A stretch of 29,152 nucleotides of DNA from a virus. This document shows, in pieces, positions 1-27,990 of this stretch. Within the stretch, counting starts at the first letter, position 1, and each line of letters begins with the position of its first letter. Position numbers and translations under genes: made by a program. The stretch is from positions 1-29,152 of IMG/VR virus record IMGVR_UViG_3300034120_001601. One strand, 5' to 3'. A model generated the notes under the pieces. It worked only from the letters and a program-made list of their open reading frames with translations, had not been told where the DNA came from and made no database searches.

Positions 1-766
1 CAGCAGTGACTTTTCCTGTATCTTTTTTAATTCCTTTTAATGCATCACTCAGTTCCGATTCTGTAACCCACCTAGAAGGATTTTTACTGTCCCACCATTT
101 ATCTATAATTCCTTTAACTTCATTTTCTGTAGTAAATTTACCAACATTTTTTATAGACCACCATTTATCTAAATCAGGTTGTGTAACCCACCTGGAAGGA
201 TTTTTACTATCCCACCAGTCGTTTAATTTAACGTTTAATTCATTTTTATCAATAAATCTTTTATTAGCATCTTCCTTTGTTATAGAAAGTGATTCAACAA
301 CCTGGCGAACTTCTGCTTTAGTTGTAAACCTATTATTAGCATCTTCCTTTGTTATAGAAAGTGATTCAACAACGCCTCTAACCTCTGCTTTAGTTGTAAA
401 CTTATCGTTTGCTTCTTTTTTTGTAAAAGTATTTTCAGCAATGGCAGAACCAATTTGATTAGAAACAATATTCCTAACAACATCTTGCGTTACTACTTTC
501 ATAGAGGTAATTTGATTTTGAACAATTGCTCTTATTTGTGCTTCTGATAGACCTGTTGCTCCTGTAGGAGGAGGGGGTGGAGCAGGCGGTGGTGGAGCAG
601 GCGTAATAGGAGCAGGCGGTGGTGGAGCAGGCGTAATAGGAGTAGGCGGTGTAGGAGGCGGCGCGGGAGGCTTGGGCGGTGTGGGAGGCGGTGTGGGAGG
701 CTTGGGCGGTGTGGGAGGCTTGGGCGGTGTAGGAGGCTTGGGCGGTGTAGGAGGATTCTTTGCCAT
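1..766 (-). CDS. Proline-rich, repeat-containing tail fibre-like protein (3' end cut by window)
   Basis: Open reading frame from ATG at 766 to the left edge with no stop: 255 codons visible, so the C-terminus is missing. Residues 1-67 are almost pure proline with Thr, Lys and Ala in KPPTPP and PPAPITP units. A short TGATG linker follows, then a charged, probably helical stretch. Residues about 113-178 are roughly 24-residue repeats (SITKEDANxRF...VVESL), and 180-235 carry WWDSKNPSRWVT twice, 40 residues apart, with a degenerate copy between. The ATG overlaps the hub stop as TAATG, and GAGGTAGG lies just upstream as a ribosome site. Position after the tail hub suggests a tail tip or fibre component; the repeats fit an elongated trimeric stalk. 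No family is recognised, so the function is inferred from context. The plus-strand reading frame at 6-458 is its antisense shadow. Confidence 0.8.
   Translation of the reverse strand, partial: MAKNPPTPPKPPTPPKPPTPPKPPTPPPTPPKPPAPPPTPPTPITPAPPPPAPITPAPPPPAPPPPPTGATGLSEAQIRAIVQNQITSMKVVTQDVVRNIVSNQIGSAIAENTFTKKEANDKFTTKAEVRGVVESLSITKEDANNRFTTKAEVRQVVESLSITKEDANKRFIDKNELNVKLNDWWDSKNPSRWVTQPDLDKWWSIKNVGKFTTENEVKGIIDKWWDSKNPSRWVTESELSDALKGIKKDTGKVTA
61..223. repeat. 120-bp spaced direct repeat in fibre-like gene
   Basis: The roughly 40-base segment at 62-103 recurs at 182-223 with a handful of substitutions. Both encode the WWDSKNPSRWVT motif. A diverged copy lies between them, at about 120-165. 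Confidence 0.8.
262..405. repeat. 72-bp tandem repeat in fibre-like gene
   Basis: Bases 262-300 recur identically at 334-372, exactly 72 bp apart, and the following 30 bases also match apart from a few changes. A further degenerate copy continues to about 420. The unit equals 24 codons, so the reading frame is kept. Confidence 0.85.
588..757. repeat. Short tandem repeats encoding polyproline
   Basis: GC-rich repeats of 9-18 bases (plus-strand units such as aggcttgggcggtgt and ggtggagcaggcgtaatagg) encode KPPTPP and PPAPITP. They lie in one reading frame of the fibre-like gene and are far richer in G on the plus strand than the flanks. Copy number could vary by slippage. Confidence 0.85.
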
Positions 767-3700
767 TACTGACCTACCTCAACAATTTCAATATTCATAG
801 AAGGTCCATCTGATGATACTGAGTGCGAAATAGATGATACGACAAATACTTTATCATTAAAATTAGTATTCTCTTGAATGTATCCACGACTTTTATCATA
901 TATTCTTATTTTATCACCCAATTGTAAAATTGGATTTGGAAAAATTTCTAAAGACATTTTTAATCTTTGTCTACTGCAATATTGATTAATCCACCTCATC
1001 ATATTTTTAGCCTGAGCCATTGTTTGTATATACTGGCTGTCAAAACTAAAGGTCTGGGCCCCATATGTTGATAGATTTCTTTCCCTGGTTGTCACCCTTT
1101 TCTTCTTTTCATCTATCAGGTCATAGTAGTCTTTCATAGAGATCTTGCCTGTGCTTAATTCTTCTATACCAATACCGACAAGATACAGTGGTAGGTTGCT
1201 TTCTTCTCCTAATAGTATTGGGCCAGATGATGTATTAGCAACAACAAGTTTTGCTCCAAAAGAAGTATAGTCAAACTGTTTAATTAAATATTCTGGGTTT
1301 ACACTAGAAATATCTATTAACCTTACAACATATGCGGGTGTTTCATACCTAATATCATATTCCTTTACCTGTCTAACTAACTTAGCAAAATCATTAAAAT
1401 AGTATTGAATAGTGTTATCCTTAAAGATAAAGTCTTGATTAACAGGGATGATGCCACTTTGAATTGCTTGATCCAGAGCAGTATTTGATTTAAAGTATGA
1501 ATTAGAGACTCGCCCCACTGGTCTGGCTGCGGCAGCGACCCATTCATAAATAGCCTGTGAGTCATTTCTAACAAACATGAATATTCTTCTGCTATCTACA
1601 TTAATGGCTGGACCAGATGCTTCGATAAAAGAATTAACATATTTACTTCCATAATAAACGTCATATTTCATACCGTTTTGATATTTTTCTATTCTTATCT
1701 CTAACTCAAACACTGGGTCCGCTGTATTGGTATTTTTTACTACCTGGACTTCTGTATTGCTAACAGTATATGCACCTACTGGAGCGGTAAAAAGTAGCGT
1801 AGGTTCGTATTTACCATCTTTATTTAAACTAACTTTATACATCCTTAAATTCTGACGAGCGGCCTTTTTAGATATATTATCTTTTCCCGCACCTACAGAC
1901 TCTACCTCAACAAAGTACCCTTCGTTATTTGAATTTAAACCAAAACCTATACCAGCAATTGATGAGTTTGTTGACATAATATATTGATTATTTTTTATCT
2001 TTTTAATAGAAGAAAAAAGACGCATTCTTGTTGAAATACTGTTTGGAATAAATGGTAAATCTATCCACTGACCATAAATATTTCTTTCTCCTTGCATAAA
2101 AACATAGTCGTCAAAACTTATTCCTGGAACAAAACTATTCCCTGTAACGGCCTCATCAACCTGTTTATTCATTTGATTTAATGCTGCTATTACATCTTCT
2201 GTTGGGCCAGATTGATCAAGTCTATTAAGTAGACTTATATCGCCTTGAGGTGAATTAGGTCCAGAAAGTTTTAAGAACCCTAAATAGGATTGTAGGTCGT
2301 CATATCCTATACTTCCTAAAGCCTCTCTTGCCGACCTGTAGGTATTTTTATCAATAAAATTAAACTTAGTTGTTGCTCTTACCGCCCCTGGAGTTGAGTA
2401 TTGTTTTTTTTCTCCAAGGGTAAGTTTAAATTGTTTAGATGGGCTAATCCCGTCATTATTTTCAGCAAGGGCCACATGTTTAGCAAGTTCGCTGCTAAAC
2501 TTTGAACGTCCGTCGCCAACAACTTTATATGTATATTGACCATTGGACTGATTGATAACTTCTAAGACTACATTTACTATGAGTCCAATAATAGATATAG
2601 AAGATCCTTTTGGAAGAAAACGCATTTCTTGCTGAAGTTCTTCATCACTAAATAGAATTTTTAACTGCCCATTTATTGAAAATAATTTACCACGATATTT
2701 AATATATTCTCTATCTATTAAAATATATCCCTCATAATCTGGAATAGTAAATCCTTCATTTCTATCAATAAATATGACTAGAGATTTTTTAGCAGTTAAT
2801 TTTGCAGCATCGTTTGGAAAATATGTAGTCCCTGCCAAATTAGTTGTACTATAAATAAGTCTGATTGCCTCTTCTTCATTCAAGGCTGTATAAGTAGACG
2901 TAAATTGATTTTTAAGTTGCGTATCTGGTAAATCTACAACAAGATTAGCGCATCCTAAAACGGAAGAGTTATCGTTTCCAACTGTCCACAAAATTTTAGT
3001 AGCATAAGTATAGTTTGAGAATGCAAGGGTGGCAGCAGGAATATCACTCGTAAGTGGTGCTAGTACTTTTTCTGGAAGGTTATTTATACCTGGGACTTTT
3101 CTTGGACCATAGGTGTGATAAATAACATCACCATCCGTTACGGGATTTAATTTAATTTCATTATATGAAATAACATTAGAGTTATATGATGCTGTGAAGT
3201 TATACTCTAAACAATTTCCTGTTCCAGCAAGATTGGTATAGTCTTCATCAAAAACCATCCACATGTCTGTGCCACCGCTGGTTGAACTAGTTGATTGAGA
3301 CTGAGTAACCTTTTCAGTAAGTCTTTCTTTGGTTAAGATATTTAAATTATCTGTTTCGTCAAAGAACATTGAGCATTGTGTTGCAATAGCAAGTTGCTCT
3401 AGCACCTCTGCCACTGTTTGTTCTTTCTTGCAAAAGAATGTTCTAATTTTAACATCTTCACCAGTTTTATCCGCCCCAAGTGAACTGGTGACAAACTCTA
3501 GTCCAGTTATACCAGCATTATCTAATAATGTTAAAATAATTGTTGATAGTTTTGTTCCAGTAGAAGATACAAGTAATAGATCTGTTGCTGCCGTTTCTCT
3601 TAAAAATTTAAACTTATCCTCTAGTGTGATAGATACTGAATAATCTTGACCAACATTCCACTCATTAGAATACATAATTTTTAAAGGTATTGTTGTATTT

Positions 3701-4797
3701 GTTGTTCCATCATTAACAATTTGATAAAACGTAAACTTTGTATCTGGGTTTAACATATTTAAATCATTTAAGACGCTAGAAAATAAGAATTGATTATCTT
3801 CATTAGATAAAGAAATATTTCCTGTACTAGAAACAATTGATCCTACTGGCAAACCTATACTAGTTGAATCACCAATAGATGAGTCAAAAGAAAAAGACTC
3901 TGTGTAGTCAGTCAGATCTACCTCCAGCCTGGGAGATAATTCAATAATTTCAAGACCTTGGCTACCAGGATTATTAGTACTCATTTTAAATACAAGTAAG
4001 CGTAAACCTTTAATCTTTACTAATTGTGTAGGTGACACAGAGGATATCTGAGATAGATCTGTAACTCTACTTACAGTAGTTGACCATGTGCTACTGTTGA
4101 AATATAAATCCAAAATTCCCGTATTAAATAATGCTGAAGCGTTATCTCCCGAATTATACGCTGTTGTCCAAACATTACTTGAATTTAAGTATTGAACAAT
4201 AAATTTATCTGGAACTGTTAAATGATTTTGTACTTTAATAGTAATTTTATTAACTGGAAATGGATCTTCTCCAGAATCTTTATAAACAACATATGGGTTA
4301 GCACATAAAATATTTCCGTTTGGTGCCTTTACCCCTCTATCATTAGTATTTTCACCCATTGCTTTAGCAGTATTAAAATAATCATATTCTCTATTAAATG
4401 AAAATGGATAGTATCTTGGTGAACTTGAGTTAATATTTTCAGATTTTATTGATTCTATTTGTTTTACAATAATATTGCTTCCATAGTTTTGAAGTAAAAC
4501 AATTCCTGGGTTTGGTCTATTTGGAAAAAATATTGAAGTAAGGCTAGAAAAATAATCTGATGTAGAGTCTAATTTCTTAGTTTTATCATCATATATGAAA
4601 AAGTTTTCACCTGTTACTATGTTCGCGTCTGATGAATTAAATGTCGTGTTGGCAGCGGCAGTAGTAGGATTCTTATAAACTCCATAATATTTTAGTTGCT
4701 GATACTTATTCATATTCCACTCAGCAACAACAAGGTGGCTGCTAGTAACAGAGTCTGCTTTTCTGTATAAATTTCTCAGAGACCCGTAATTTAACAT
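766..4797 (-). CDS. Large minor tail protein, tail hub / baseplate-type
   Basis: 1343-residue protein directly after the distal tail protein; its ATG (4797) overlaps that gene's stop as TAATG. Order after the tape measure, size and beta-rich composition match tail hub (Tal-like) or minor tail proteins of actinobacterial siphophages. The N-terminal ~280 residues look like a beta-sandwich region. Residues about 290-560 hold the structural core, with LxVDLTDYTESFSF and later a helix-plus-strand segment (QTVAEVLEQLA). A separate lectin-like segment at about 890-1090 contains the GQWIDLPF...MRLFSS strand pattern. The C-terminal ~90 residues (RWINQYCSRQRLKMSLEIF, then LGDKIRIYDKSRG) resemble the final hub domain. 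No peptidase motif was recognised. It should cap the tube and carry the fibre proteins. Role confidence is good; exact domain limits are approximate. Confidence 0.8.
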   Translation of the reverse strand: MLNYGSLRNLYRKADSVTSSHLVVAEWNMNKYQQLKYYGVYKNPTTAAANTTFNSSDANIVTGENFFIYDDKTKKLDSTSDYFSSLTSIFFPNRPNPGIVLLQNYGSNIIVKQIESIKSENINSSSPRYYPFSFNREYDYFNTAKAMGENTNDRGVKAPNGNILCANPYVVYKDSGEDPFPVNKITIKVQNHLTVPDKFIVQYLNSSNVWTTAYNSGDNASALFNTGILDLYFNSSTWSTTVSRVTDLSQISSVSPTQLVKIKGLRLLVFKMSTNNPGSQGLEIIELSPRLEVDLTDYTESFSFDSSIGDSTSIGLPVGSIVSSTGNISLSNEDNQFLFSSVLNDLNMLNPDTKFTFYQIVNDGTTNTTIPLKIMYSNEWNVGQDYSVSITLEDKFKFLRETAATDLLLVSSTGTKLSTIILTLLDNAGITGLEFVTSSLGADKTGEDVKIRTFFCKKEQTVAEVLEQLAIATQCSMFFDETDNLNILTKERLTEKVTQSQSTSSTSGGTDMWMVFDEDYTNLAGTGNCLEYNFTASYNSNVISYNEIKLNPVTDGDVIYHTYGPRKVPGINNLPEKVLAPLTSDIPAATLAFSNYTYATKILWTVGNDNSSVLGCANLVVDLPDTQLKNQFTSTYTALNEEEAIRLIYSTTNLAGTTYFPNDAAKLTAKKSLVIFIDRNEGFTIPDYEGYILIDREYIKYRGKLFSINGQLKILFSDEELQQEMRFLPKGSSISIIGLIVNVVLEVINQSNGQYTYKVVGDGRSKFSSELAKHVALAENNDGISPSKQFKLTLGEKKQYSTPGAVRATTKFNFIDKNTYRSAREALGSIGYDDLQSYLGFLKLSGPNSPQGDISLLNRLDQSGPTEDVIAALNQMNKQVDEAVTGNSFVPGISFDDYVFMQGERNIYGQWIDLPFIPNSISTRMRLFSSIKKIKNNQYIMSTNSSIAGIGFGLNSNNEGYFVEVESVGAGKDNISKKAARQNLRMYKVSLNKDGKYEPTLLFTAPVGAYTVSNTEVQVVKNTNTADPVFELEIRIEKYQNGMKYDVYYGSKYVNSFIEASGPAINVDSRRIFMFVRNDSQAIYEWVAAAARPVGRVSNSYFKSNTALDQAIQSGIIPVNQDFIFKDNTIQYYFNDFAKLVRQVKEYDIRYETPAYVVRLIDISSVNPEYLIKQFDYTSFGAKLVVANTSSGPILLGEESNLPLYLVGIGIEELSTGKISMKDYYDLIDEKKKRVTTRERNLSTYGAQTFSFDSQYIQTMAQAKNMMRWINQYCSRQRLKMSLEIFPNPILQLGDKIRIYDKSRGYIQENTNFNDKVFVVSSISHSVSSDGPSMNIEIVEVGQ

Positions 4798-5338: not shown

Positions 5339-8300
5339 TTAAATACTCCTACTATGATTTCTACGATTACCAGAACTATTTATCATACTGGCAACCTTAT
5401 TAGCAATTGCTGCGGCACTCTTTCCACCAGCACCATTAATAATAATTCTAACATTATTTGAACTGTTTCCGCCATAATTATTTACATTTGAACTATTTGT
5501 TGACATGCTTGGTAGATTAAATGCTGGTTGAGCCATAGAGGAAGTATCTTGATTAAGTGAAAAAGATCCAGCATTTACCTGATCTAAGAATGACTTTCCA
5601 TATTTAGCAACACTAGAAGCCTTAACTACATATTCACCATTTGAAAGCATAGCGGGAATAGAATCAGATCTAGGGCCACCTAAGCCTAGGACCATACCTC
5701 CTGCTGCAAGCCTTGCCTTTGGAGGTCCGCCAAAAGTAAAATATTTTTTATTAAAATCATTATTTAATGGACTCATTTTAACTGGATTTCCGGCCTCTAT
5801 TACTTGACCATTACCTGCATACATAGAAATATGTTTATAAGATTCTGGATATGGTGTATTGGTAAAGTATAGAAGATCACCAACACTAAATTTATTTGGA
5901 ATTTCTGGCATACCACCGTCACCTGGGTTGCCAGAAGTCCTTCTTGCAACGATTCTTAATCTATCCGCCTGAGAGGTAGAATATGATGCCAGGGCATATT
6001 TTGTGCTTCCACCAGGAACTCCTTGATTATATGCGGCAGCAGTAAGACCAGAACAATCCCATGAATCTGGACCATCTGAATTAGATACATATGGCTCTCC
6101 TAGTTGTTGTTTAGCAAATGCTACCGCTAGGGCTCCATCAGTATTTCCTCTACTACCGCCGCCATTTCCTGGTTTTTCTGGCTTTCCTGGCTTTCCTGGC
6201 TTTCCTGGTCTGGAAGGAATTGGAAGCATTCTTCCAGTAACAAATTGTGGGCTTGCTTTGCCAAATTGAACTCTTGATGAAGATCTAGAACCTTCTCCTC
6301 CACCTGGGCCCTGTATTGTAGAAGATAACGGCCCAATACCAGCCCCAGGTTTATTACCAGCCCCAGGTTTATTACCAGCCCCAGGGTTATTACCAGTGTT
6401 TCCTTTATTATTTAAACCTTTGAATGAATTCCAGAATAACTCTGTTCTTCTGATTGTTTCATTTCTTGCCTCTGATCCTGGAGCAAAATATGATGAATTT
6501 GCATAATATGACCAGTCCCACCCAGTTTTACCATTAAATTGTGGAGTCAACGCCCATGGTAGGAAAAATTCTCCTTTTCTAGAAACATATTTATATGCCA
6601 TGGAAGAGTTATAAACTGGGTCTTTTAATTTATTTAAATCAAACCATCTTTGACCTCCATAGGCTTTTTCATTAATCTGGAATAGTCCAGTGTCTGAATT
6701 AGTCGGGCTGTATCTGCTAAAAGCATTTGGATTGCCGTTAGATTCACGCATGGCAATCGCATACGCAAGTCTTACTCTATCGTCAGGCCACCCACCATCA
6801 ACAATAGACTTAACAGTATTTCTAGCAGTTTTTACTGATACTCCCTCACTTTCCAGTAAGTCTTTATCTAATTTGACAATGCCGCCTTCAGCAAACTTTC
6901 CAGCATTAATGGTATCCATCATTCCCTTACCATATTTGCTTACACTAGATGCTTGAATAACATATTCACCATTAGAGAGAAGGGCTGGAATTACATCAGA
7001 CTTGGGTCCGCCTGGACCCTTTATGCTCCCTCCGCTTGCACGCCTTGGAATAGGTGGTGGACTGACAAATCCAGGGATACCCACTGTTTGACTTACTGTT
7101 TGATATGTTGTAGCAGACTGATAATTAGATGGAATATTACCAAAGCCAATTAAAGAATTATAAATATCTATTAGTTGTTGCTCCGCCGCCTTTAGTTCAA
7201 TGTCTTTGGCTGAAACTTGCGCTTGTAGTTTTAGTTGGAGGGCAGCCATTTCTGCTTTAACTAGTTCTTCGTATCTTTTACCAGTCTCCTCGCCAAAAAC
7301 TCTAGTAACTTCTCTATAACTTTTAGTTTCTCCTTCTTTAATATCATCAATTAAATTTTTTGCCCTAGTATTATTACTAGTTCTGTTGGCTAATCTTCTT
7401 TCTAGTTGTGTCGAATGCTCTTCAGTTTCATCATCAAATGCTTTCATATTATTTTCATGCATTTCAGATTCTTTATCCATTAATTTTTGGACACCATCAA
7501 TTTTATCTTCCATCATTTTTTCATACTCATCTTGCTCTTGTTGCCGTCTTTCACGAACTTTATCTATTGCCTCTAATTCAAGATCAGTTTTTTCTTCTAT
7601 ACCTTCAATAGTTTGATCATAAGAGAATTGTCTAGCATCCTCTGACATGGCTTCACGTTCTTGGAGGAATCCAAAAACGTCACCAGAAGCAAGTTTTTGC
7701 AAGGCTCCAAAAGCAGTTTTTCTTTGTTGAGCATAGAATGAATCTGCCTTTTGATTCTTTTGTAAAGATTTAATATAAGCATCAGAAGATTTTTTAATTT
7801 TGTCTGACTTCTCATCAAGTTGATCCATCTCTTCATCAAAAGACTCTCTCTTTGTTTCCATTTCATCCTGTATGGCTTCAATTGAATCTTCTCTTGACTT
7901 TTGCTCTGCCTCAAAACTTTCTTCGACGGCCTCTCTTTCATCTTCTCTAGACTTAGCGTAATCTTTAATTTTTTCTTGCATTACTTCAACAGAGTTGCCA
8001 ATTTTATCTAGTGCTGCTGTTATAGGACCAGAGTCTGCAAAGTCTAATAATGCCTGTTTTGCATCATCTACTGCAACCTCCAGTTGAGCCAATCTGCTAG
8101 CATTATCTATTGCTGCTCTTGCAAGAGCATCATCAAATTGCCCTGCGCGATTTTTTGCTTCTGCTAGTGGAACCCCTAGCGCAGTCATTTGAATGGCTAA
8201 TGCTTGAGTCTCTGCCGTAGAATTTTGTAACTGATCTAAAAGTTGATTAATTACTGGATCATCTAACTCGCCCATCATATTTTTAAATTCATCAAATGCC

Positions 8301-11300
8301 ATCTCACGGGCAGACGTTCCCAGTCCAAGAATATCACCCGCATCTTCATTTAGCGCTAAGTAAGATTCTCTAATTTTATCTAGATTTTGAGCAACTAGTT
8401 CTGGCGCAGTCTGAGATATTTCTATAGAACTCTTTAATGCTTGAACAAACTCTGGCCCACCAGCCAGAACATTCTTAAAATTACGACTAGCAACCTGAGG
8501 TGTACTTCTTCCATATAACCCAGGATTAGCAATTGCTTGCTGTTTCATTGCTTCACTTGCTGCTGTTTGTTGGCCTGCTACTGACTCTGGACTAATATTA
8601 TCTATTGTTTGTTGATACGCCTCTTCTATTGTTTTTGCTTCTAGCAAACCATTAGAGAATGCGCTAGCAAATGCAATGCCACCCTTATATCCAGCCTCTG
8701 CTGCAATAGCCTTAATTGAATCCTGAGCCTCTTCTGCACTCATTCCAGAAATAATCATCTTGGTATATGCAGCACCAAGGTCGGCTGCTCCAACAGTAGT
8801 GACTGAAGTTTTCAACTTTTCAATAAGTCCTGCATAGTCTTCACTAACAGCCATACGCAATTCAGAGTTTATTGAGGATAGTTCTTTTGATACGCCTGCT
8901 GCTTGAATGTTCTCCAGCGCATTTCCAAGACCGTCAATAGTCTTACCAAAGAATTCTGCTGTCTTTGTTGGTTCAGCAAAGGCGGCATTTGCTTTTTCTT
9001 TTGCTTCATCAAGAGATTTCTTATACATGTATAGACCAGCAGCAGTAATAACTAATGGAATTGCTACTGCTGCTACAGTTCCTGCTGCCGCTGCGCCACC
9101 GCCTGCCAATGCTCCTCCTGCTCCCATTAAGCCTCTAGAAAGTAATCCAGGAGCAGCGTGACGACCAGCAGGGGCTAATTTGCCTCCAAGGGAGGTCAGA
9201 CCTCCGCCAATCTTCTTAACACCACCAACCATTGCTCCACCAATGCCCATCCCTCCAAACATTTGTGCAGCCATGGTTGCCGTCATTAGGGCTGTGCTAA
9301 ACATCATTAGTTTATTAGCAGCATCTCCACTAGCACCACTAAACATAGTCATTGTTGATGTAAGCATAGAAAGACCTAGAAGTGCGTTTGTTCCACCAGA
9401 GGAAAGACTCCCCATTCTACCCTTTTTCCTAGTGTCCTGGTCATCTTTTTCAAGATCCAGTTCCCCCATCGCATCTATTAAAGAGTCTCCAGGTCCACTT
9501 TGTACATCTTCTGGCTTTGGCATTCTTCCAACAGTTCCAAAGGCAGCATATCCTCCAGGCCCATAAAGTCCGCCAGGAGAGACCATAGATGCAGTCGCAC
9601 GACGAGCAGCATTTTTAGCCTCTTCTTGTTCAGATCTTGCCTGTGCTTGATCAGCATCTGCAATTCTTTGCTTGTGCCCATTAATAATATTTTGAATACG
9701 AGTTTCATTTTGTAAAGCAGTTTGATGAGTTTTTTCTAAAGCAATACGTTCTTGATTTAATGCTAATGTTGCTCTAAGTTTTTCTTGGGCAGTCATTGTT
9801 TCACTATTTCTAATTTGCAATAACCTATCATCTAGTACGCCCAGTTCAATCTCTGTTCTTACTCTGTCGGCGGTGAACTTCTGCTGAAGAGTCTTCATCT
9901 TCAATATTGATTGATCTGCCTGAGCAATTTTTTGAGCATTAGAAATAGATTCAATGCCCGTGCCACCCACAGGACCAGAAATTATTGGCTTTCCAGCGGC
10001 AGAAGATTTGTACCCTTTAATAAAACCTTGTGATGCACCGTCTCCAAAGTTTTTACCTTGTATAGCCATTTCTCTATCTGCTCTTTTAGACGGAGATGCT
10101 GCCTCTAATGTTCTAGCAACAGTACTCACAAATGCTTTTGCTAAATCATCTATAAATGTAGCGGCATTTGTTTCTATCTGCTTCATAAACAGTTCTCTTT
10201 GGGTTCCACCCATAGAAGAGGCCATAGACTTTGTTATTCTTTGACCCTCTGGGGTGTACATTGTTGGAGTAGAGTATGGCTGAGAAAGGGGTCTGGCCCC
10301 TACTGGTAGGGCAAAACTAAGAGGTGAAATTTGTGCGCCTTGATATGTTGGCATATTCCCAAGAGGAATTCTTTCACTCCTTGGCCTTACTCCTAAATAT
10401 TCCTCTGGTCCTAATTGAGCATAAATTCTTTTACTTTTACCTTCACCACCAGAATACATTGGCACGCCAGACGCTTGACCAAACATATACATGTTAGATG
10501 CTGTTAGACCTCTACCAGCAGAAAATGCTGTGGGGGTTTCAAATAATCTCATTAAAGCAGCACGTTGTCTAGGGTCAGATACCCCTGCTAGGGCTGCCAT
10601 GCTCATTGATTCAAGTTGGGCGGCATTAAAAGTAGAGCCCTTAAATCCTGCCGCCTGAGCCCTCATCTGTTGAGCAAAACTACCAACTGCTTGTTCCGCT
10701 AGATTAAGATCACCATTGAACTCTCCTGTTTCAGATATCATTACTCTTAATTGTTCTCTTAATGGATCGAATGCCATTCCCGTATCTGAAATTTCTCTTC
10801 TAAACATTTCTATGGAGGCTTCTCCTCTTTCCATAGATTGATTAAGAGTAGTGCTTAGGCCAACTACTGCATTGCTATAAGTTTTAACCTGGAAGTCCGC
10901 GCCATGAATAGATTGTATAAGCATTAACATGGCTCTTGCACCTTGATCTAAAAATGGTAGTTGAAGCAGTGAGCCAACATTTTGATCTTTTGCACTATAA
11001 AGATGTGACAATTGTGTACCTTGTTGAAATCCTTGTAACGTCCCACGATTCATTTGCATTAGGACTGGAGCATATTTTTCTGTAGCAGCACGATTAACAA
11101 TAAATTCACCAGGCTCAAGCATGGCGGGAATCTTATCTCCCCGACCTGAACCAGGAACAAATTCTGGCCTAGAAGATCCAGATTGTCTTTTAATTGGAAC
11201 TGAGCCGCCGCGACCAGGAATGGCCCCAGGAATAAATAATGCTGGGTTTGTAGTGGCTAACTGCCTTAAAGATGTTTGGTATTGAGACATAATTGCAACA

Positions 11301-13150
11301 AGTTTTCTCATTGCAGCCTCTTGGCTAGTGAATGATAATGTAAGGTTGTCTACTCCTAATTTAGCCGCCATAACCTCTGCATTAAGAAGTTCAAATTTAT
11401 CTACTCTAAGCCCAGCCATTCTTGCCCCAAGACGCATGATAACCATGCCAATCTTTAAACCATTGGCAATAAGGTTTCCAAATAGACCCACCAACATGAT
11501 AATTGGACCTGCAAGAGCGGTTAAAGCAACAACATATTTAGTAAAATTCTTTACTGGTTCTGGTAAAGCCTGGAAGAAATCAGCAAATATTCTAACCCCC
11601 TCTCCAATTTTTTGGAAAATGGGAATTAATGTTTCAGTTAGGACTTCGCCAAGAGGCATAACTGCATTCTTTAAATCTTCTATGGCTCTTTGGAATCTAA
11701 CAGCAGTTGATTCTGTAAGTGTCTTAATTTCTTGATTTGCAACTGCCGCTAATTCTGTAGAACTCTTTGCAGCAAGTTCTAATACTGCCTGCGTCTGTGA
11801 GCCAGTTTTTCCAATATTATCAAAAAGGGCTGAAATTCTAGCAAATTGGTACTTACCAAAAATTTGTTCAATAACTCTTGCACGACCAAAATCGTCCAGT
11901 CCTGATAGAGCATTTTGCATAGCAAAAATAGTAGGCATCAGTTGCCCTTTGTTTGCCTCTACTATACTCACTAAATCAATTCCAAATTTCTTTGCCACCT
12001 CACTTGCTTGTTTTGTTGGATTGATAAGTGATGCTAAACCAGATTTTAATGCATTTGCTGCTTCTGCTGCTGGAATACCGCCTTCACGCATAGCAACAAG
12101 AAGTGCTGCTAGGTCTTCTACATCTCCGCCAAGACTTCTAACAACAGGGCCAACCTTAGGAATAGCAGTTGCTAAATCCTCTAGTGTTGCAGATGTTTGG
12201 TTTTCTACAGCATTCAAGAAGTTGATAGATTCTGCTAATTCATTAGTATTCAATTTAAATGCTGACTGAAGAGCCAGAGTAGCCTTCATAGCCTCTTGTC
12301 TATCTACTTCACCTAATACTGCTAACCTTGTCGTCTGTTGGACAGATTCCATTAACTGTTCGCCTTCTGCTCCTGTGGCAGCAATATCGGCGGCGAGAGC
12401 AGCGGTTTCTTGAGCAGCAATACCATATGTACGAGAAATATCAAAGGCTAGTTGCTTTACCTGTTCTCTCATGCGAGAAGTAGATTCACTAATAGCGCCG
12501 CCAAGATCAGACCCATAAACCTTTTGGAACCTTGTTAATTCTTTATCCAAGTCTCGGAATTGTTTAGACGTAACCGCAGCAAGCATAGCAAGGGGTAAAG
12601 TAAAACCTACCATAAGTTGACGACCAGCCCACTGAGTATTTTTGCCCCAGTTAAGCATGGAAGTCGCACCATTATCAATTAATTGATTAAATATAGAGAA
12701 TTTTTGAGCAGCCATAGCAGCAGATGTTCCCGTTGCAGAAAGTGCAGCGGGGGTCATCATCATTGCCTGTCCTCCACCAACGGGAACAGCAACAGACTGT
12801 TGATACTTTACTTGCTGTTCAGCAAGTCGTTTCATCAAACTATTTTGTTTTGTATATCCTGCAATTGCTTCACGAAATGACTCACGCATTGTAAGTTTAT
12901 TGGCGGCAATTTGTTTTCCAAAATTTTCTACGGCATTATGGGCCTGTACCATTTGAGTGGTAAAGCCGCCAATATTTCCAACATCTCTCGCAAATGCTCC
13001 AGCAAGATTTCTTTGAGCAGAAAGAGCAGATTTATCAAGGGTATTAAATGCAGCAGTAAGGCCAGCAATTTGCCCTGTTAAAGCCTTAATTTGCGCCTGA
13101 GCAGGCGACAAATTAGCATTATAAGTTATGACGGAATTAATGTTAGCCAA
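5339..13150 (-). CDS. Tape measure protein with lysozyme-like and NlpC/P60 domains
   Basis: 2603 residues, the largest gene here, beginning with TTG and overlapping the chaperone stop by 8 bases. Residues about 170-470 match the TP901-type tape measure core (GKNTQWAGRQLMVGFTLPLA, FRDLDKELTRF). Hydrophobic stretches lie at about 530-565 and 1345-1375, and a highly charged coiled coil at about 1720-1940. Near the C-terminus are a transglycosylase/lysozyme-like domain with MRESNG (candidate acid Glu2136) and DTGLFQIN, then an NlpC/P60 peptidase domain with WDCSG (Cys2366) and KHISMYAG (His2440). A motif of the form GPGGxxSDxIPAxLSNGEYV appears at about 665, 2045 and 2490, flanking these domains. 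Collagen-like PGK and NKPGAG repeats link the two. The protein sets tail length, and the enzyme domains probably open peptidoglycan during DNA entry. Confidence 0.95.
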   Translation of the reverse strand: MANINSVITYNANLSPAQAQIKALTGQIAGLTAAFNTLDKSALSAQRNLAGAFARDVGNIGGFTTQMVQAHNAVENFGKQIAANKLTMRESFREAIAGYTKQNSLMKRLAEQQVKYQQSVAVPVGGGQAMMMTPAALSATGTSAAMAAQKFSIFNQLIDNGATSMLNWGKNTQWAGRQLMVGFTLPLAMLAAVTSKQFRDLDKELTRFQKVYGSDLGGAISESTSRMREQVKQLAFDISRTYGIAAQETAALAADIAATGAEGEQLMESVQQTTRLAVLGEVDRQEAMKATLALQSAFKLNTNELAESINFLNAVENQTSATLEDLATAIPKVGPVVRSLGGDVEDLAALLVAMREGGIPAAEAANALKSGLASLINPTKQASEVAKKFGIDLVSIVEANKGQLMPTIFAMQNALSGLDDFGRARVIEQIFGKYQFARISALFDNIGKTGSQTQAVLELAAKSSTELAAVANQEIKTLTESTAVRFQRAIEDLKNAVMPLGEVLTETLIPIFQKIGEGVRIFADFFQALPEPVKNFTKYVVALTALAGPIIMLVGLFGNLIANGLKIGMVIMRLGARMAGLRVDKFELLNAEVMAAKLGVDNLTLSFTSQEAAMRKLVAIMSQYQTSLRQLATTNPALFIPGAIPGRGGSVPIKRQSGSSRPEFVPGSGRGDKIPAMLEPGEFIVNRAATEKYAPVLMQMNRGTLQGFQQGTQLSHLYSAKDQNVGSLLQLPFLDQGARAMLMLIQSIHGADFQVKTYSNAVVGLSTTLNQSMERGEASIEMFRREISDTGMAFDPLREQLRVMISETGEFNGDLNLAEQAVGSFAQQMRAQAAGFKGSTFNAAQLESMSMAALAGVSDPRQRAALMRLFETPTAFSAGRGLTASNMYMFGQASGVPMYSGGEGKSKRIYAQLGPEEYLGVRPRSERIPLGNMPTYQGAQISPLSFALPVGARPLSQPYSTPTMYTPEGQRITKSMASSMGGTQRELFMKQIETNAATFIDDLAKAFVSTVARTLEAASPSKRADREMAIQGKNFGDGASQGFIKGYKSSAAGKPIISGPVGGTGIESISNAQKIAQADQSILKMKTLQQKFTADRVRTEIELGVLDDRLLQIRNSETMTAQEKLRATLALNQERIALEKTHQTALQNETRIQNIINGHKQRIADADQAQARSEQEEAKNAARRATASMVSPGGLYGPGGYAAFGTVGRMPKPEDVQSGPGDSLIDAMGELDLEKDDQDTRKKGRMGSLSSGGTNALLGLSMLTSTMTMFSGASGDAANKLMMFSTALMTATMAAQMFGGMGIGGAMVGGVKKIGGGLTSLGGKLAPAGRHAAPGLLSRGLMGAGGALAGGGAAAAGTVAAVAIPLVITAAGLYMYKKSLDEAKEKANAAFAEPTKTAEFFGKTIDGLGNALENIQAAGVSKELSSINSELRMAVSEDYAGLIEKLKTSVTTVGAADLGAAYTKMIISGMSAEEAQDSIKAIAAEAGYKGGIAFASAFSNGLLEAKTIEEAYQQTIDNISPESVAGQQTAASEAMKQQAIANPGLYGRSTPQVASRNFKNVLAGGPEFVQALKSSIEISQTAPELVAQNLDKIRESYLALNEDAGDILGLGTSAREMAFDEFKNMMGELDDPVINQLLDQLQNSTAETQALAIQMTALGVPLAEAKNRAGQFDDALARAAIDNASRLAQLEVAVDDAKQALLDFADSGPITAALDKIGNSVEVMQEKIKDYAKSREDEREAVEESFEAEQKSREDSIEAIQDEMETKRESFDEEMDQLDEKSDKIKKSSDAYIKSLQKNQKADSFYAQQRKTAFGALQKLASGDVFGFLQEREAMSEDARQFSYDQTIEGIEEKTDLELEAIDKVRERRQQEQDEYEKMMEDKIDGVQKLMDKESEMHENNMKAFDDETEEHSTQLERRLANRTSNNTRAKNLIDDIKEGETKSYREVTRVFGEETGKRYEELVKAEMAALQLKLQAQVSAKDIELKAAEQQLIDIYNSLIGFGNIPSNYQSATTYQTVSQTVGIPGFVSPPPIPRRASGGSIKGPGGPKSDVIPALLSNGEYVIQASSVSKYGKGMMDTINAGKFAEGGIVKLDKDLLESEGVSVKTARNTVKSIVDGGWPDDRVRLAYAIAMRESNGNPNAFSRYSPTNSDTGLFQINEKAYGGQRWFDLNKLKDPVYNSSMAYKYVSRKGEFFLPWALTPQFNGKTGWDWSYYANSSYFAPGSEARNETIRRTELFWNSFKGLNNKGNTGNNPGAGNKPGAGNKPGAGIGPLSSTIQGPGGGEGSRSSSRVQFGKASPQFVTGRMLPIPSRPGKPGKPGKPEKPGNGGGSRGNTDGALAVAFAKQQLGEPYVSNSDGPDSWDCSGLTAAAYNQGVPGGSTKYALASYSTSQADRLRIVARRTSGNPGDGGMPEIPNKFSVGDLLYFTNTPYPESYKHISMYAGNGQVIEAGNPVKMSPLNNDFNKKYFTFGGPPKARLAAGGMVLGLGGPRSDSIPAMLSNGEYVVKASSVAKYGKSFLDQVNAGSFSLNQDTSSMAQPAFNLPSMSTNSSNVNNYGGNSSNNVRIIINGAGGKSAAAIANKVASMINSSGNRRNHSRSI
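6176..6210. repeat. 9-bp tandem repeat encoding PGK triplets
   Basis: Consecutive ctttcctgg units encode collagen-like PGKPGKPGK within the same inter-domain linker of the tape measure protein. Confidence 0.8.
6337..6394. repeat. 18-bp tandem repeat in the tape measure gene
   Basis: Three near-identical 18-bp units (ttaccagccccaggttta) encode GNKPGAG repeats. They form a flexible linker between the lysozyme-like and NlpC/P60 domains. Confidence 0.8.
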
Positions 13151-23630: not shown

Positions 23631-24233
23631 CTAATGTCTTCCTGTCGCATGTGCAATAGAATTTATAATGGTTGGATGAATTCCTGGTGGTAAGTCATTC
23701 ATCCATGTAACAATAATATATTTTACCCCAGAAGTAACTGGCATAGCAGCATGTTTATAGATATAATTTGATGGAAATAAAACTATTGATGGTTCTTCAG
23801 GATTAATTGATAAATCAAACTGATCAAAGTGGGTCTCGCCGCCTTCATATTCTGTTGGGTTTAAATAAATAAGACCTGATAAAACTCTGTATAAATTCCA
23901 ATTTGCATCTACATGATAGTCGTACTTATTATACTCGCTATATCTAAGTAGAACTAGCGACTCGTCCTGAGTAATATTAATTTCATAATCTTCCATATAT
24001 TCTTTAACACACTCAATAAAGACTTCTTTTATTTTTGACGCTGCAATTGGCATTTCTGCTTCAAGTGCTATCTGCTCACTTGTTCTTACATCGCTAGAGT
24101 GCCCATTAGTACCAACAAGGCTTCTGTCCCAGGGTACACTATCATCACTTTCAAGCATATCGATTAAACTTCTGGCTAATTTTTTTGGAAATGGATATTG
24201 AACAACTCCTGGAGCCAGTATTTTTTTAGTCAT
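23631..24233 (-). CDS. 2-oxoglutarate/Fe(II) dioxygenase, prolyl hydroxylase-like
   Basis: 200 residues. The facial triad is intact: His107 and Asp109 (YHVDANWN) and His161 (YKHAAMPV), with Lys171 (SGVKY) in place to bind 2-oxoglutarate. The core strands RVLSGLIYLNPTEYEGGETHF and PSIVLFPSNYIYKH match the prolyl 4-hydroxylase-type branch found in phages. The reaction would be oxidation of a substrate side chain with 2-oxoglutarate, oxygen and Fe(II). The substrate is unknown. It follows the membrane protein gene, overlapping its stop, with AAGGG 7 bases before the ATG. A diverged relative lies at 27965-28621. Confidence 0.85.
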   Translation of the reverse strand: MTKKILAPGVVQYPFPKKLARSLIDMLESDDSVPWDRSLVGTNGHSSDVRTSEQIALEAEMPIAASKIKEVFIECVKEYMEDYEINITQDESLVLLRYSEYNKYDYHVDANWNLYRVLSGLIYLNPTEYEGGETHFDQFDLSINPEEPSIVLFPSNYIYKHAAMPVTSGVKYIIVTWMNDLPPGIHPTIINSIAHATGRH

Positions 24234-24234
24234 A

Positions 24235-24450
24235 TTAAACCCTTATTATAGATAATACTAACAATAATATTGATAGTAGTAGCATTACTACATGAACGAT
24301 AGATGTAGTTTTATTTTTATATGAAAAATATATCACAATGCCTGCTGAAATTACAAGTAAAGATGTAAATATTATAGATAGGTTAAAAAATATTAAAGTA
24401 ATTATATTAATTAAAAACAGGAAGATGTATAAGTTTACCCATTTAGTCAT
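24235..24450 (-). CDS. Small membrane protein, possible holin
   Basis: Start placed at the ATG at 24450, which overlaps the previous stop (ATGACTAA) and follows GGTGG. The longer frame from 24504 would overlap by 62 bases. It encodes 71 residues with about three hydrophobic spans (LYIFLFLINIITLIFFNLSI, SLLVISAGIVIYFSY, VVMLLLSILLLVLSII) and few charges outside KTT between them. Small multi-span proteins in phages are often holins or superinfection-related membrane proteins, but no endolysin gene is adjacent, so this is only a possibility. Confidence 0.6.
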   Translation of the reverse strand: MTKWVNLYIFLFLINIITLIFFNLSIIFTSLLVISAGIVIYFSYKNKTTSIVHVVMLLLSILLLVLSIIRV

Positions 24451-25027
24451 TAACCACCCATAACATTTTTTCTTCATCCCACTTAAATTCATCTGGTTCT
24501 GCATCTAATGGATATGGTACGGGAGAAGTATACTTTTCTTTAGCATAATCCCACAGCCAACCTCTATGTGGGGCTGGTTCAGCAGGTTCCCATGAAAGAG
24601 AGTCATCATTCCAAATATATTTATCTGGCTCAGACTCTACTAATTTTGTTGGGTATGGCATAGGTGCTACATATTCTTCTTTTTGATAGTCCCACTGCCA
24701 TGTTTCATATGGCTTGTCTGTAGTAATCATTTTATGTGTTCTAGTTGATCTATCTAGAATTTCAAGGACTGGCATATATTCATTTAATAAAATAAGGCTT
24801 TGAATATACTGTGCAATTTTTTCAATAGAAAGTGTTTGAGTCAGTTGCTTCTTATCAATTTTTTCTTTCATTATATCAAGCACTTTATTTTTTATTTCAT
24901 TGCAAACATCAATATCTAAAGATAGTTCTGCCACCAGAACATCAATATTATTCATATTAAATGGATAGACTAATCCATCTTCTGTTTCTAATAAAAATGA
25001 ATTATCAACTGTACATATTATTCTCAT
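24443..25027 (-). CDS. Phage protein with Trp/Tyr-rich C-terminal repeats, unknown function
   Basis: 194 residues. The N-terminal ~105 residues are alpha/beta with a helical stretch (KNKVLDIMKEKIDKKQ). From 108 there are two copies of a module with WxWDYxKExY(V/T)xPxPYP followed by an EPD(K/E)(Y/F)xWD segment (108-152 and 156-194). Similar WDxx...PYP repeats occur in uncharacterised phage proteins, but I know no function. The start is supported by AAGGTGG just before the ATG; it lies 1 base after the zinc-ribbon gene's stop. Confidence 0.7.
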   Translation of the reverse strand: MRIICTVDNSFLLETEDGLVYPFNMNNIDVLVAELSLDIDVCNEIKNKVLDIMKEKIDKKQLTQTLSIEKIAQYIQSLILLNEYMPVLEILDRSTRTHKMITTDKPYETWQWDYQKEEYVAPMPYPTKLVESEPDKYIWNDDSLSWEPAEPAPHRGWLWDYAKEKYTSPVPYPLDAEPDEFKWDEEKMLWVVND

Positions 25028-25028
25028 G

Positions 25029-25196
25029 TTACCACCTTCCTATAGGACATTTTGCATCTGCAAGCAATGTTTTCATAGACATTATACACCCACATTTATT
25101 GCATTGAGTTGTAATTTTATTAAAAAACTCACAATTTTTGCAAATATCAAGTCTGTTAGACCGTAATTCTTTAATATAATTAATTTTTTCTGACAT
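25029..25196 (-). CDS. Small zinc-ribbon protein (DUF6171-like)
   Basis: 55 residues, below common ORF length limits but clearly real: ATG overlaps the upstream stop as TAATG, AAGGTG lies 8 bases upstream, and the frame ends 1 base before the next ATG. Cysteines at 19, 22, 32, 35, 37 and 50 form two CxxC-type knuckles, followed by the C-terminal CPIGRW motif typical of DUF6171-like phage proteins. It is likely to bind one zinc ion. No function is known. Placed between a tail-type protein and an unknown gene in one operon. Confidence 0.8.
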   Translation of the reverse strand: MSEKINYIKELRSNRLDICKNCEFFNKITTQCNKCGCIMSMKTLLADAKCPIGRW

Positions 25197-26917
25197 TAAA
25201 CATTCACCTTAAATCTACTTATAGAATAACTTTGAGTGTATGGAACTGCGGTAACGATTATACCATGCTTAGTCCCTTTATTTATTGGACCAGCGTCATA
25301 GGTTACTAGATTTGATGAAGTTCCTGCTCTACCTGTCGCTGAGTATTGTCTAAATCCAATTGTATTCCCAGAGGTATAAGCATAGACGTTTCCTACATCG
25401 CCAAAGTCTTGATTAGTTATTACATTTAATGTTCCGCCAGATTTTCTAATAATTTGACCTCGTTTGTAATATGCTGCATTTACACCTGAAAAACTTGTAA
25501 TACAAGAAGGTGACCCAGCAGGACATGCTACACATGATCGTGAATATAATGTTCCTGTAGGTTGAGTTGAAGAGCATGGAATATTATTAGCACATACAGG
25601 AAAACTTACGTTACTAGATATAAAACTAAGATAATTACTGTTAGTAATTGGTCCATCTGTACATGTGCATGATGCTGGAGTAGGGGTGTTATTATTTGGA
25701 GGATTATAATTTGGCACATTATTAGTTGGAGTATTAAAACTCGGTGGATTATTAAACCTTGGGGCATTATTACTAGCAGGGTTATTATTCGGAGCATTAT
25801 AATTCGGTGGATTATTAGTAAAGTTTGCTTTAGTAGCACTAACGCCATATGCACAAGAACAGTTTGCATTATTAAATGAGAAATTATTATATGATGAAGC
25901 ATTAGGGCAGAATAATTGAAATATGCTGTTAACATTACTAGGCGAAGGCGAGGCTCCACAAATTGGTCCACATGCTGGTCCGCACCCGCTCCCACATCCA
26001 GATATTCTTGTTGCGAATGATCTATTGTCTGGATTTCTATTACAAGGAAAGGGGCTAGGGCCTGGATAATTTGTTGGTCCACAACCATTAATGCAGTTAT
26101 TACCTCCACTACCAAACGAAAGACTACAATTACTATTTGAATTACCACTACATGAACAAGTTCTAGTTGAAATTGTTGCAAGAAATGTATTTCTATTAGT
26201 AATCATACTGAAATAAGAGAGGGAATAGTTACAGGATACAAATGTTCCAGAATTTACAATATTATTACTTCCAGGAACAGGAGTAGAAGGAACTGGGGTA
26301 AAACAACATGTTCCTGTACACCCAGTTGTATTCGTACATGTTCCAAAGGCACTTACATTTCCAGGGGTTACAACATTTCCTGGGCTTGCAATATTATTAG
26401 TTCCAGGGATTGCTGTTCCTGGAACGGATGGATTCTGTGTAATATTTCTTGTTCTAAATGAATCAGTACAATTAAATGGATAGTAAGTAAAATTAGTGAA
26501 TGGAACGAAATATTCTTCAGTGTACGCTCTCACGCCCCACCAATTCGATTGGTCTTGAATCCAAAAGGCTACTCCGTCACCGCCTGTTGCTGCCGTAGTC
26601 CTATCAATTTCTACTTCAACATCTGTTAGCCCAGTTTCTAGTGCAGCAACTCTATCGGAGGTATCTGATGACGATACATTTCCACCAGATTCTGTCCAAG
26701 TACCACTTATTACTTCCCAGGGAGCATATCCTGGGGTCAACTGTCCATCTAATGATCCAGTGCCATCAAATGGGTCGGCGGCTGTGATATCAAATGTTAT
26801 TTTCCAAACCCCACCGACTTTAGCATACATCTGCTTACAAGGCTTCCATTGACCAGAAACTCTAGCATATGGCAGTTTAACAGTTCGCCAAGTTCCTCCA
26901 ACTTTTGCATTTGCCAT
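25196..26917 (-). CDS. Tail-type protein with lectin-like domain split by a Cys/Asn/Pro-rich insert
   Basis: 573 residues. Residues 1-40 are three short repeats (AKVGGTWRTV, ARVSGQWKPC, AKVGGVWKIT) common at the start of minor tail proteins. Residues 43-137 are the first half of a jelly-roll fold (DPFDGTGSLDGQL, WISGTW-like strand, GDGVAFWIQDQSNWWGVRAY). Residues about 140-480 are low-complexity, rich in Cys (about 26), Asn, Pro, Ser and Gly, with NNPPNYN-type repeats at 365-412. Residues 485-573 look like the missing strands of the jelly-roll (GNVYAYTSGNTIGFRQYSA and GIIVTAVPY). It is probably a surface-exposed virion protein that binds a host receptor, by inference. It starts from a leaderless promoter. 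Confidence 0.7.
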   Translation of the reverse strand: MANAKVGGTWRTVKLPYARVSGQWKPCKQMYAKVGGVWKITFDITAADPFDGTGSLDGQLTPGYAPWEVISGTWTESGGNVSSSDTSDRVAALETGLTDVEVEIDRTTAATGGDGVAFWIQDQSNWWGVRAYTEEYFVPFTNFTYYPFNCTDSFRTRNITQNPSVPGTAIPGTNNIASPGNVVTPGNVSAFGTCTNTTGCTGTCCFTPVPSTPVPGSNNIVNSGTFVSCNYSLSYFSMITNRNTFLATISTRTCSCSGNSNSNCSLSFGSGGNNCINGCGPTNYPGPSPFPCNRNPDNRSFATRISGCGSGCGPACGPICGASPSPSNVNSIFQLFCPNASSYNNFSFNNANCSCAYGVSATKANFTNNPPNYNAPNNNPASNNAPRFNNPPSFNTPTNNVPNYNPPNNNTPTPASCTCTDGPITNSNYLSFISSNVSFPVCANNIPCSSTQPTGTLYSRSCVACPAGSPSCITSFSGVNAAYYKRGQIIRKSGGTLNVITNQDFGDVGNVYAYTSGNTIGFRQYSATGRAGTSSNLVTYDAGPINKGTKHGIIVTAVPYTQSYSISRFKVNV

Positions 26918-26923
26918 TCCTAA

Positions 26924-26929
26924 ATTATA
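26924..26929 (-). promoter_or_regulatory. Extended -10 box, leaderless start (minus strand of divergent pair)
   Basis: TGATATAAT on the minus strand (TATAAT at 26929-26924), then TTAGGA (6 bases), then ATG at 26917. There is no separate ribosome site at a normal distance. Confidence 0.6.
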
Positions 26930-26940
26930 TCACGCCATGC

Positions 26941-26946
26941 TATAAT
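26941..26946 (+). promoter_or_regulatory. Extended -10 box, leaderless start (plus strand of divergent pair)
   Basis: TGCTATAAT (TATAAT at 26941-26946), then TATTCT (6 bases), then GTG at 26953. The two -10 boxes face away from each other across an 11-base core that is an imperfect palindrome. Confidence 0.6.
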
Positions 26947-26952
26947 TATTCT

Positions 26953-27261
26953 GTGTCAGATATAGACTTATCAACTAATAGATTTTTATCAGATTATAGG
27001 ATAAAGAAGTTTTTTATTGATTCTAATGATCAAAGGTACGAATTATCTATCTCTAATATTATAGGGTCTCATGGTCAGCAGGCTTTCTATACCATATTTA
27101 AACCAGTTGAACATGATCATATTATTTATATGTCTGGTTTTACTACTTCTTGGAATTCCGCAAAAAAAATATTTAAAGATATTGTTTTGCATATGTCTGA
27201 GAAGTATAATGTTAATGTTGAAGATTATCCAGAACTTCAATCTTTTATTTCTAAAATATAG
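26953..27261 (+). CDS. Small unknown protein with GTG leaderless start
   Basis: 102 residues from the GTG at 26953, whose first base falls where transcription should begin from the -10 box 6 bases upstream. An ATG at 26905 in the same frame is upstream of this promoter and inside the opposite gene, so it is less likely. The protein is alpha/beta with a conserved-looking strand and helix arrangement (YELSISNIIGSHGQQAFYTIF, then a C-terminal helix). Not recognised. It is followed after 15 bases by the DUF6065-like gene, so both form a two-gene plus-strand operon. Confidence 0.65.
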   Translation: MSDIDLSTNRFLSDYRIKKFFIDSNDQRYELSISNIIGSHGQQAFYTIFKPVEHDHIIYMSGFTTSWNSAKKIFKDIVLHMSEKYNVNVEDYPELQSFISKI

Positions 27262-27276
27262 ATAGGAACACTCTTA

Positions 27277-27990
27277 ATGGAAATTAATGTTTATCCAATT
27301 GAAGAAACTTATGGTGGCGACTTCATGGAATATTGTATTCGTAAAAGCGATAATGAAATTCCTGAATGGTATAAAAAAAGTGATTCATATGTAAATAATC
27401 TTAGTAAGTCTGTGAAAAAAGATAAGGCGCAGTCTATAAAAAGATGTATGCCAGTTTTTGATTATTTATCATATGGGCTGACCCTTCACTTTCCATTTTC
27501 TCTATATGCAGAGGGAACTGGTCTGAACCAACAATTAAGTTCTAGCACTGAGTCCTTTAACTGTAAACTAGGCCATCACTCTCCCCAGCAGTTGCAAGAA
27601 CTACCATATCCAAAAGAATATTCTTATGCTCCATATAAAGTAGATTTTCCTTTTTATATTGAAGCCCCAGATGGGTATTCTGCTGTGTATATTCCTTACT
27701 ACCCGTATACTGGATACCCTCTTTTATTTATAGGTGCAATGGTGCAGGTTGATAAATATAAAGCCCCCGTTAATTTTCCTTTTCTTGTTAATAGCAATTT
27801 TGAAGGAAAGATCGATGCGGGAACTCCATTCATGAAGGTAATCTTTGTAAAAAGAGATAGCATTAGTTTAAACTATAAGAAGTTTGGTTCTGATAAAGGG
27901 TTTATTCAACAAACCCGACACTTTGTTGAAAGTTTTGGCTCTGGTTTTTATAGAAACCTTAGAACTAATCAGATTTTTCCAAAGAAATAG
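27277..27990 (+). CDS. DUF6065-like phage protein
   Basis: 237 residues. It has an RCMPVFDYLSYGLTLHFPF segment, a central YAPYKVDFPFYIEAPDGYS strand pair, DKYKAPVNFPF, and an IDAGTPFMKVIFVKRDS strand, the pattern of the DUF6065 family of phage and bacterial proteins. AGGA lies 10 bases before the ATG. Its 3' end overlaps the convergent dioxygenase-like gene by 26 bases. A second member, on the other strand, is at 28605-29152. Function unknown. Confidence 0.65.
   Translation: MEINVYPIEETYGGDFMEYCIRKSDNEIPEWYKKSDSYVNNLSKSVKKDKAQSIKRCMPVFDYLSYGLTLHFPFSLYAEGTGLNQQLSSSTESFNCKLGHHSPQQLQELPYPKEYSYAPYKVDFPFYIEAPDGYSAVYIPYYPYTGYPLLFIGAMVQVDKYKAPVNFPFLVNSNFEGKIDAGTPFMKVIFVKRDSISLNYKKFGSDKGFIQQTRHFVESFGSGFYRNLRTNQIFPKK

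Follow-up and report, generated by a model that had tools for sequence, protein, structure and literature searches.

One end of a viral contig raises the question of what a gene that opens with a long run of proline codons and continues into tandem repeats contributes to a phage tail. The window, that is, the whole stretch of DNA analysed, comprises 29,152 bases of the IMG/VR virus record IMGVR_UViG_3300034120_001601. The gene, here called X, lies at its left edge, directly downstream of a gene for a Tal-like minor tail protein of the tail tip. The following features were delineated.

2..766, minus strand: gene X, truncated by the contig edge to its first 255 codons
566..754, minus strand: proline-rich head, residues 5-67 (proline count, phase listing, TRF arrays)
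2..565, minus strand: stalk, residues 68-255 (self-alignment, profile test)
257..400, minus strand: two 24-residue repeats, FTTKAEVR(G/Q)VVESLSITKEDAN(N/K)R, residues 123-170
17..256, minus strand: two 40-residue repeats containing WWDSKNPSRWVT, residues 171-250
766..4797, minus strand: tail-tip (Tal-like) minor tail protein, upstream neighbour of X (phrog_10359, E 4e-61)

The ATG of X and the TAA stop codon of the tail-tip gene share one base (TAATG). A preliminary description had given X a 67-residue polyproline head and a reading frame open to the edge. Both statements hold, since 43 prolines were counted in residues 1-67 and the 255-residue frame runs from 766 to 2 on the minus strand and off the left edge. 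The head starts with TPPKPPTPPKPP, in which (T/K)PP units place threonine and lysine at every third residue, and its later part consists of Ala/Thr/Ile-Pro units. In X, TRF found proline-codon arrays whose periods (12, 15, 18, 30 and 45 nt) are all divisible by three. A polyproline-II helix has three residues per turn. Because threonine and lysine recur at every third residue, they would form a single stripe if the head adopts this helix. An N-terminus of the form MAK(N/I)PP is common to the window and to loci L012 and L001 (MAKNPPTPPKPP, MAKNPPKPAPKP and MAKIPPKPPPKK, respectively). It is absent from the other window-clade copies of X and marks a subgroup, not the whole X family. A CCN-repeat pattern applied to 38 records was uninformative, proline codons and other-strand glycine codons being indistinguishable.

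The stalk is repetitive far beyond chance, because self-alignment of residues 68-255 scored 144 at an offset of 24 and 101 at an offset of 40, while the maximum of 500 shuffles was 53. Related units, each about 17-24 residues long, make up the stalk from about residue 123 onwards. In-frame repeats had been proposed here and were found as 72-nt and 120-nt units, 24 and 40 residues long and multiples of three. Their division into two separate families did not survive, as one core motif, [KR]F-T-x-x-x-E-V..., is common to the 24- and 40-residue repeats. The two look like one family, because none of 5000 shuffles of the 40-residue region reached the score that this region itself gave with a profile of the two 24-residue units, which were picked after being seen.

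TRF reported the 72-nt array at 253-405 with 2.1 copies and a score of 243. Copies 253-324 and 325-396 are 89% identical, with 8 differences in 72 nt distributed over 5 codons, 3 synonymous and 2 not. The near-identity described for 262-372 thus applies to a core whose length, counted by eye, is about 41 nt and not to the whole unit, and the idea that the repeats are recent or homogenised is not supported. Because the copies differ, an assembly artefact is unlikely for them. The 84-nt stretches 54-137 and 174-257, spaced 120 nt apart, are 74% identical.

Searches with the window's own X placed it in no known family. The X reading frame found no relative in the phages collection, and the stalk matched nothing among plasmids or PDB sequences. 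Three pattern matches to the stalk in viral_contigs yielded no confirmed relative, and nothing there matched a degenerate DNA pattern for WWDSKNPSRW. The best Pfam score was 19.3 bits, below the curated cut-off of 32.4, and the best PHROGs match had an E value of 0.0068, which is not strong. FBA, COMM_HN, CEP76_N, DUF3349, phrog_9172 and phrog_4225 were rejected as candidates for X, lying below cut-offs or near noise.

The Tal-like gene was therefore used as bait to find X loci, X being defined as the longest reading frame that starts near the Tal stop codon, not by annotation. Among phage records 132 Tal relatives were found, 127 from Streptomyces phages and 5 from Rhodococcus phages, all below 60% identity; the two whose taxonomy was checked, Circinus and Coruscant, belong to the Stanwilliamsviridae. 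Nearer relatives occur in IMG/VR (44-61% identity), where an alignment search with Tal gave at least 429 confirmed relatives, the best 80 of which were used. The same alignment found no relative in genome_contigs. Both IMG/VR searches combined gave a census of 79 loci, in three of which (L002, L014 and L068) the contig stops within X. Left out of the best-80 set were L010, L013 and L015, which repeat earlier contigs, and L053, L054 and L058, which are truncated in Tal; L004 and L005, whose contigs end before X, were left out from the first seven relatives.

Gene order at this locus is constant. A YRFY-type tail gene directly follows X in 73/73 loci with enough flank, a count in which three of the loci had contributed to the model and many are near-duplicates. 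Models of the downstream gene built only from three window-clade copies matched in 76/76 loci with complete X, and so did a model built only from two Streptomyces phages. The window-clade model also matched the two Streptomyces phage proteins with E values of 7e-28 and 3e-32. X most likely belongs to a tailed phage distantly related to actinobacteriophages. The preliminary description of X as fibre-like agrees with this tail-module context, with a Tal-like gene before X and, in relatives, a tail gene after it; the head and stalk of a fibre are probably not the whole picture.

The remainder of the window has several features of its own. A 2603-residue tape measure protein with lysozyme-like (SLT) and NlpC/P60 domains is encoded at 5339-13150 (minus strand) and contains collagen-like PGK and NKPGAG repeats at 6165-6208 and 6337-6396. 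The 573-residue product of 25196-26917 (minus strand) is rich in cysteine, asparagine and proline, has imperfect 15-18-nt repeats (25689-25815) and matches PHROGs weakly, at the N-terminus only. A short protein encoded at 24443-25027 (minus strand) carries two Trp-rich copies (W-x-WDY-x-KE-x-Y...PYP) and has no Pfam match. Two plus-strand reading frames without a Pfam match lie at 26905-27990, within an otherwise minus-strand structural module. No tRNA was found in the window.

Because X is cut by the window's edge, its 3′ end was sought in relatives. One C-terminal part (C-part) is common to 10/10 window-clade copies whose 3′ end is seen, nine of them aligned in A5 and the tenth, L006, in A2. 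It is divergent, the C-parts of L007 and L012 being only 24-28% identical. The missing C-part of the window's X can be predicted from these relatives to be of the A5 type. The N-terminal part (N-part) was compared by eye. L001 and L012 share the proline head of the window and not its stalk. A helical-looking module is common to L012, L003, L011, L094 and L095, Asp-rich stretches occur in L003, L006 and L094-L097, and Gly-rich repeats are also found. Before the C-part, X of L003, L006 and L094-L097 has DxDxDGxPD repeats, which presumably resemble calcium-binding thrombospondin type-3 repeats; L006 gave no Pfam match.

A sister clade shows the same division. Among 57 distinct X proteins (the set and its alignment A6 being without L023), the C-part, counted from a conserved motif, measures 129-159 residues (sd 3.7) and the N-part 25-236 residues (sd 63.8). 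N-part length differs by at least 30 residues in 42/114 pairs with C-part identity of at least 70%, and in 1/13 pairs with identity of at least 90%. The arm is dispensable, because the N-part is 35 residues or shorter in 35/63 sister-clade loci. Five or more consecutive prolines occur in 15/57 N-parts, and in all 15 of these proteins the run falls within the last 25 residues before the C-part, placed as a linker would be. A LysM motif was found in the N-part of five of the 57 (L070, L044, L077, L080 and L089). It passes the Pfam cut-off in L070 and L044; a Pfam scan of ten X proteins gave no match in eight, L012, L001 and L006 among them. A binding domain on the arm is thus seen in few X proteins. 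N-parts also bear runs of Thr-Pro and stretches that are charged or rich in glycine or alanine.

No homology was detected between the C-part of the window clade (A3, A5) and that of the sister clade (A4), the hhalign probability being 0.1%, so X is tied between the clades by gene order alone. For the sister-clade C-part, the one member searched against phages gave no match, and none of 28 members matched PHROGs. AlphaFold predicted both C-parts poorly (pLDDT 51 and 62). A fold search with the second model returned one uncharacterised phage protein (E 2e-8, 41% identity, TM 0.37), which is in effect a sequence relative, and no PDB fold with an E value of 0.001 or less.

The preliminary description had suggested that the repeats could change stalk length. 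In-frame length change in X is real and is seen in relatives rather than in the window's own repeats. Between L003 and L006, which are about 98% identical at the DNA level, X has two length differences, of +21 and +39 nt, and both fall in the N-part. No indel was found in 4271 nt of Tal, the C-part of X or the next gene, and an 8-kb slice upstream of Tal, the tape-measure region, has internal indels of up to 360 nt. Likewise the N-parts of X in L094 and L095 show indels of +15 and -6 nt; their Tal genes differ by two short indels of 12 and 3 nt, a third apparent indel being an effect of the cut position. X is therefore not of constant length among its relatives. Contig ends were also inspected. 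In the window clade 3/11 Tal-bearing records end inside X (the window at its left edge, L002 and L014 at their right edges), which exceeds our own rough estimate of 4% per record (binomial p 0.008). Only L068 does so in the sister clade, one of 71 census loci. The excess is a hint only, and the sister clade speaks against a general effect.

We lean towards the reading that X is an accessory protein of the tail tip, with a fixed C-part docked there and an exposed, exchangeable N-terminal arm. This division is suggested by a constant part that is encoded beside the tail-tip gene and bears exchangeable extensions. The C-part most likely docks X on the tip beside the Tal-like protein. The arm would be exposed on the virion and would be gained, lost, replaced and re-lengthened in frame, with recombination between in-frame repeats as the putative cause of altered length. 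In the window the proline head is probably a stiff polyproline-II rod striped with threonine and lysine, and the repeated stalk is probably helical and oligomeric. LysM on some arms points to cell-wall contact, and peptidoglycan is the expected ligand of such arms in sister phages. The arm of the window probably helps the tip to reach or bind the cell envelope, where the proline rod could pass through the wall or attach to it, or keep the stalk pointing outward.

The arm might instead be a near-neutral spacer in which replication slippage adds and removes repeats and selection only keeps the frame open. TRF arrays were found in 23/71 distinct X genes, the window and X genes cut by contig ends included. 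Their best-array periods are all multiples of three, and among the periods listed for up to six arrays per gene only one, of 17 nt, is not. This periodicity would fit a spacer, as would the widely varying low-complexity composition and the many copies of X that are almost without an arm. A spacer accounts less well for a folded module, LysM, at this place in some proteins, or for the core motif that the window units retain in common. Nor would it explain why L001 and L012 retain the MAK(N/I)PP head though their Tal proteins are only about 60% identical to that of the window. We consider a neutral spacer unlikely.

An enzyme-based possibility arises from another gene of the window.

23631..24233, minus strand: prolyl-4-hydroxylase-like 2OG-Fe(II) oxygenase, hypothetical modifier of the proline head (PF13640, E 2.8e-13)

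Its PDB matches comprise three distinct sequences, all named prolyl 4-hydroxylase or procollagen-proline dioxygenase (best E 1.2e-6). In such enzymes HxD...H is the iron triad and a lysine binds 2-oxoglutarate. The HxD, the distal histidine and the lysine are all present in the alignment (YHVD, YKHAAMP and GVKYII). A second 2OG-oxygenase-like copy at 27965-28621 (minus strand) is 33% identical to the first over 141 residues. It keeps the HxD and is probably catalytically dead or repurposed, because the distal histidine and the lysine are missing. The phage's own enzyme might then hydroxylate the proline head, giving a stiffer polyproline-II rod or a glycosylation-ready, hydroxyproline-rich arm. 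Chlorovirus prolyl 4-hydroxylase acts on (PAPK)n peptides, and the head of L012 contains PAPK.

To these domain features is added an association between enzyme and head. PF13640 was found in 3/3 proline-headed window-clade records versus 2/10 with another or partly seen head (Fisher p 0.035), in 3/4 versus 8/67 over all 71 searched records, which are a part of those behind the loci (p 0.011), and in only 2/2 versus 2/5 window-clade records of at least 50 kb (p 0.29), but the grouping was made after the data were seen and fragment size and relatedness confound all three tests. Two records in which X is unseen were left out of the window-clade test, G031 with the enzyme and G032 without it; the oxygenase of G031 is the closest copy to that of the window (48% identical). 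Against a dedicated role, PF13640 is absent from the 32.8-kb record of L087, whose arm is strongly proline-rich, the enzyme family is present in 401/50,697 phage records, mostly cyanophages, and other Pro-rich stretches of the window (6165-6208, 6337-6396 and 25689-25815) could equally be substrates. DNA repair and effects on 2-oxoglutarate have been proposed for cyanophage 2OG oxygenases (PMC3037559). A review states that chloroviruses encode a prolyl 4-hydroxylase of unknown role and that hydroxyproline was not detected in their virions (PMC7019647), which we count against hydroxylation of the head. Viral use of prolyl 4-hydroxylase "remains cryptic" according to a Baltic Sea study (PMC9301287). 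Hydroxylation of the head is on balance quite improbable, and that a modified (T/K)PP head spans or binds the host cell wall is a little less probable still. If true, this would give the P4H-like oxygenases of many aquatic phages an identified substrate in the virion, and the co-encoded enzyme makes the substrate question for such phage enzymes directly testable.

It is highly improbable that the proline run acts mainly in translation, EF-P-dependent stalling after a coupled start setting the dose of X: the window run does begin at codon 5 behind the TAATG overlap, L001 and L012 also combine a one-base overlap with a proline-rich start, and polyproline stalling relieved by EF-P is established, but a stall would not need (T/K)PP units kept in order across tens of residues, some window-clade members have no proline head, and in the 15/15 sister-clade proteins with long runs one run immediately precedes the C-part, well away from the start.

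An accessory tail-tip protein with an exchangeable arm remains our preferred reading of X. Mosaic tail proteins as such are already known, and on this reading X represents a modular family of tail-tip genes that follows this known principle and that the searched libraries do not describe. Among the papers listed by literature searches none dealt with the X family or with a proline-rich phage tail-tip arm, which is no proof of absence. If the reading is true, tail-tip diversification is concentrated in X, a compact hot spot whose genomic position is predictable and which pairs one constant part with many exchangeable arms, and the locus could help to predict envelope-binding parts of uncultured phages.

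Several known systems resemble parts of this picture. The chlorovirus prolyl 4-hydroxylase is likewise virus-encoded and, according to the review, acts on proline-containing peptides (PMC7019647); chloroviruses are algal viruses, whereas the window is from a phage and its P4H-like enzyme is known here from sequence. Circinus gp39 and Coruscant HUN41_00065 of the Stanwilliamsviridae are hypothetical proteins that occupy the place of X, after a Tal-like gene and before a homologous downstream tail gene. They are likened to X by place, being only 112 and 120 residues long with no proline arm and no repeats seen. X of L070 and L044 has the same locus and plan, namely an accessory N-part, a proline linker and a constant C-part. 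It carries a cell-wall-binding domain where the window has a proline rod and repeats, and its C-part is not homologous by profile. Repeat-bearing phage tail fibres, like X, have in-frame stalk repeats in the tail module; X differs in having no Pfam family above the cut-off and no strong PHROGs match. The usual plan of a tail fibre ends in a variable C-terminal receptor tip. The relatives of X have a constant C-part instead, and because the C-terminus is the conserved part, the polyproline head and repeats would form an exchangeable arm rather than the main body of a receptor fibre.
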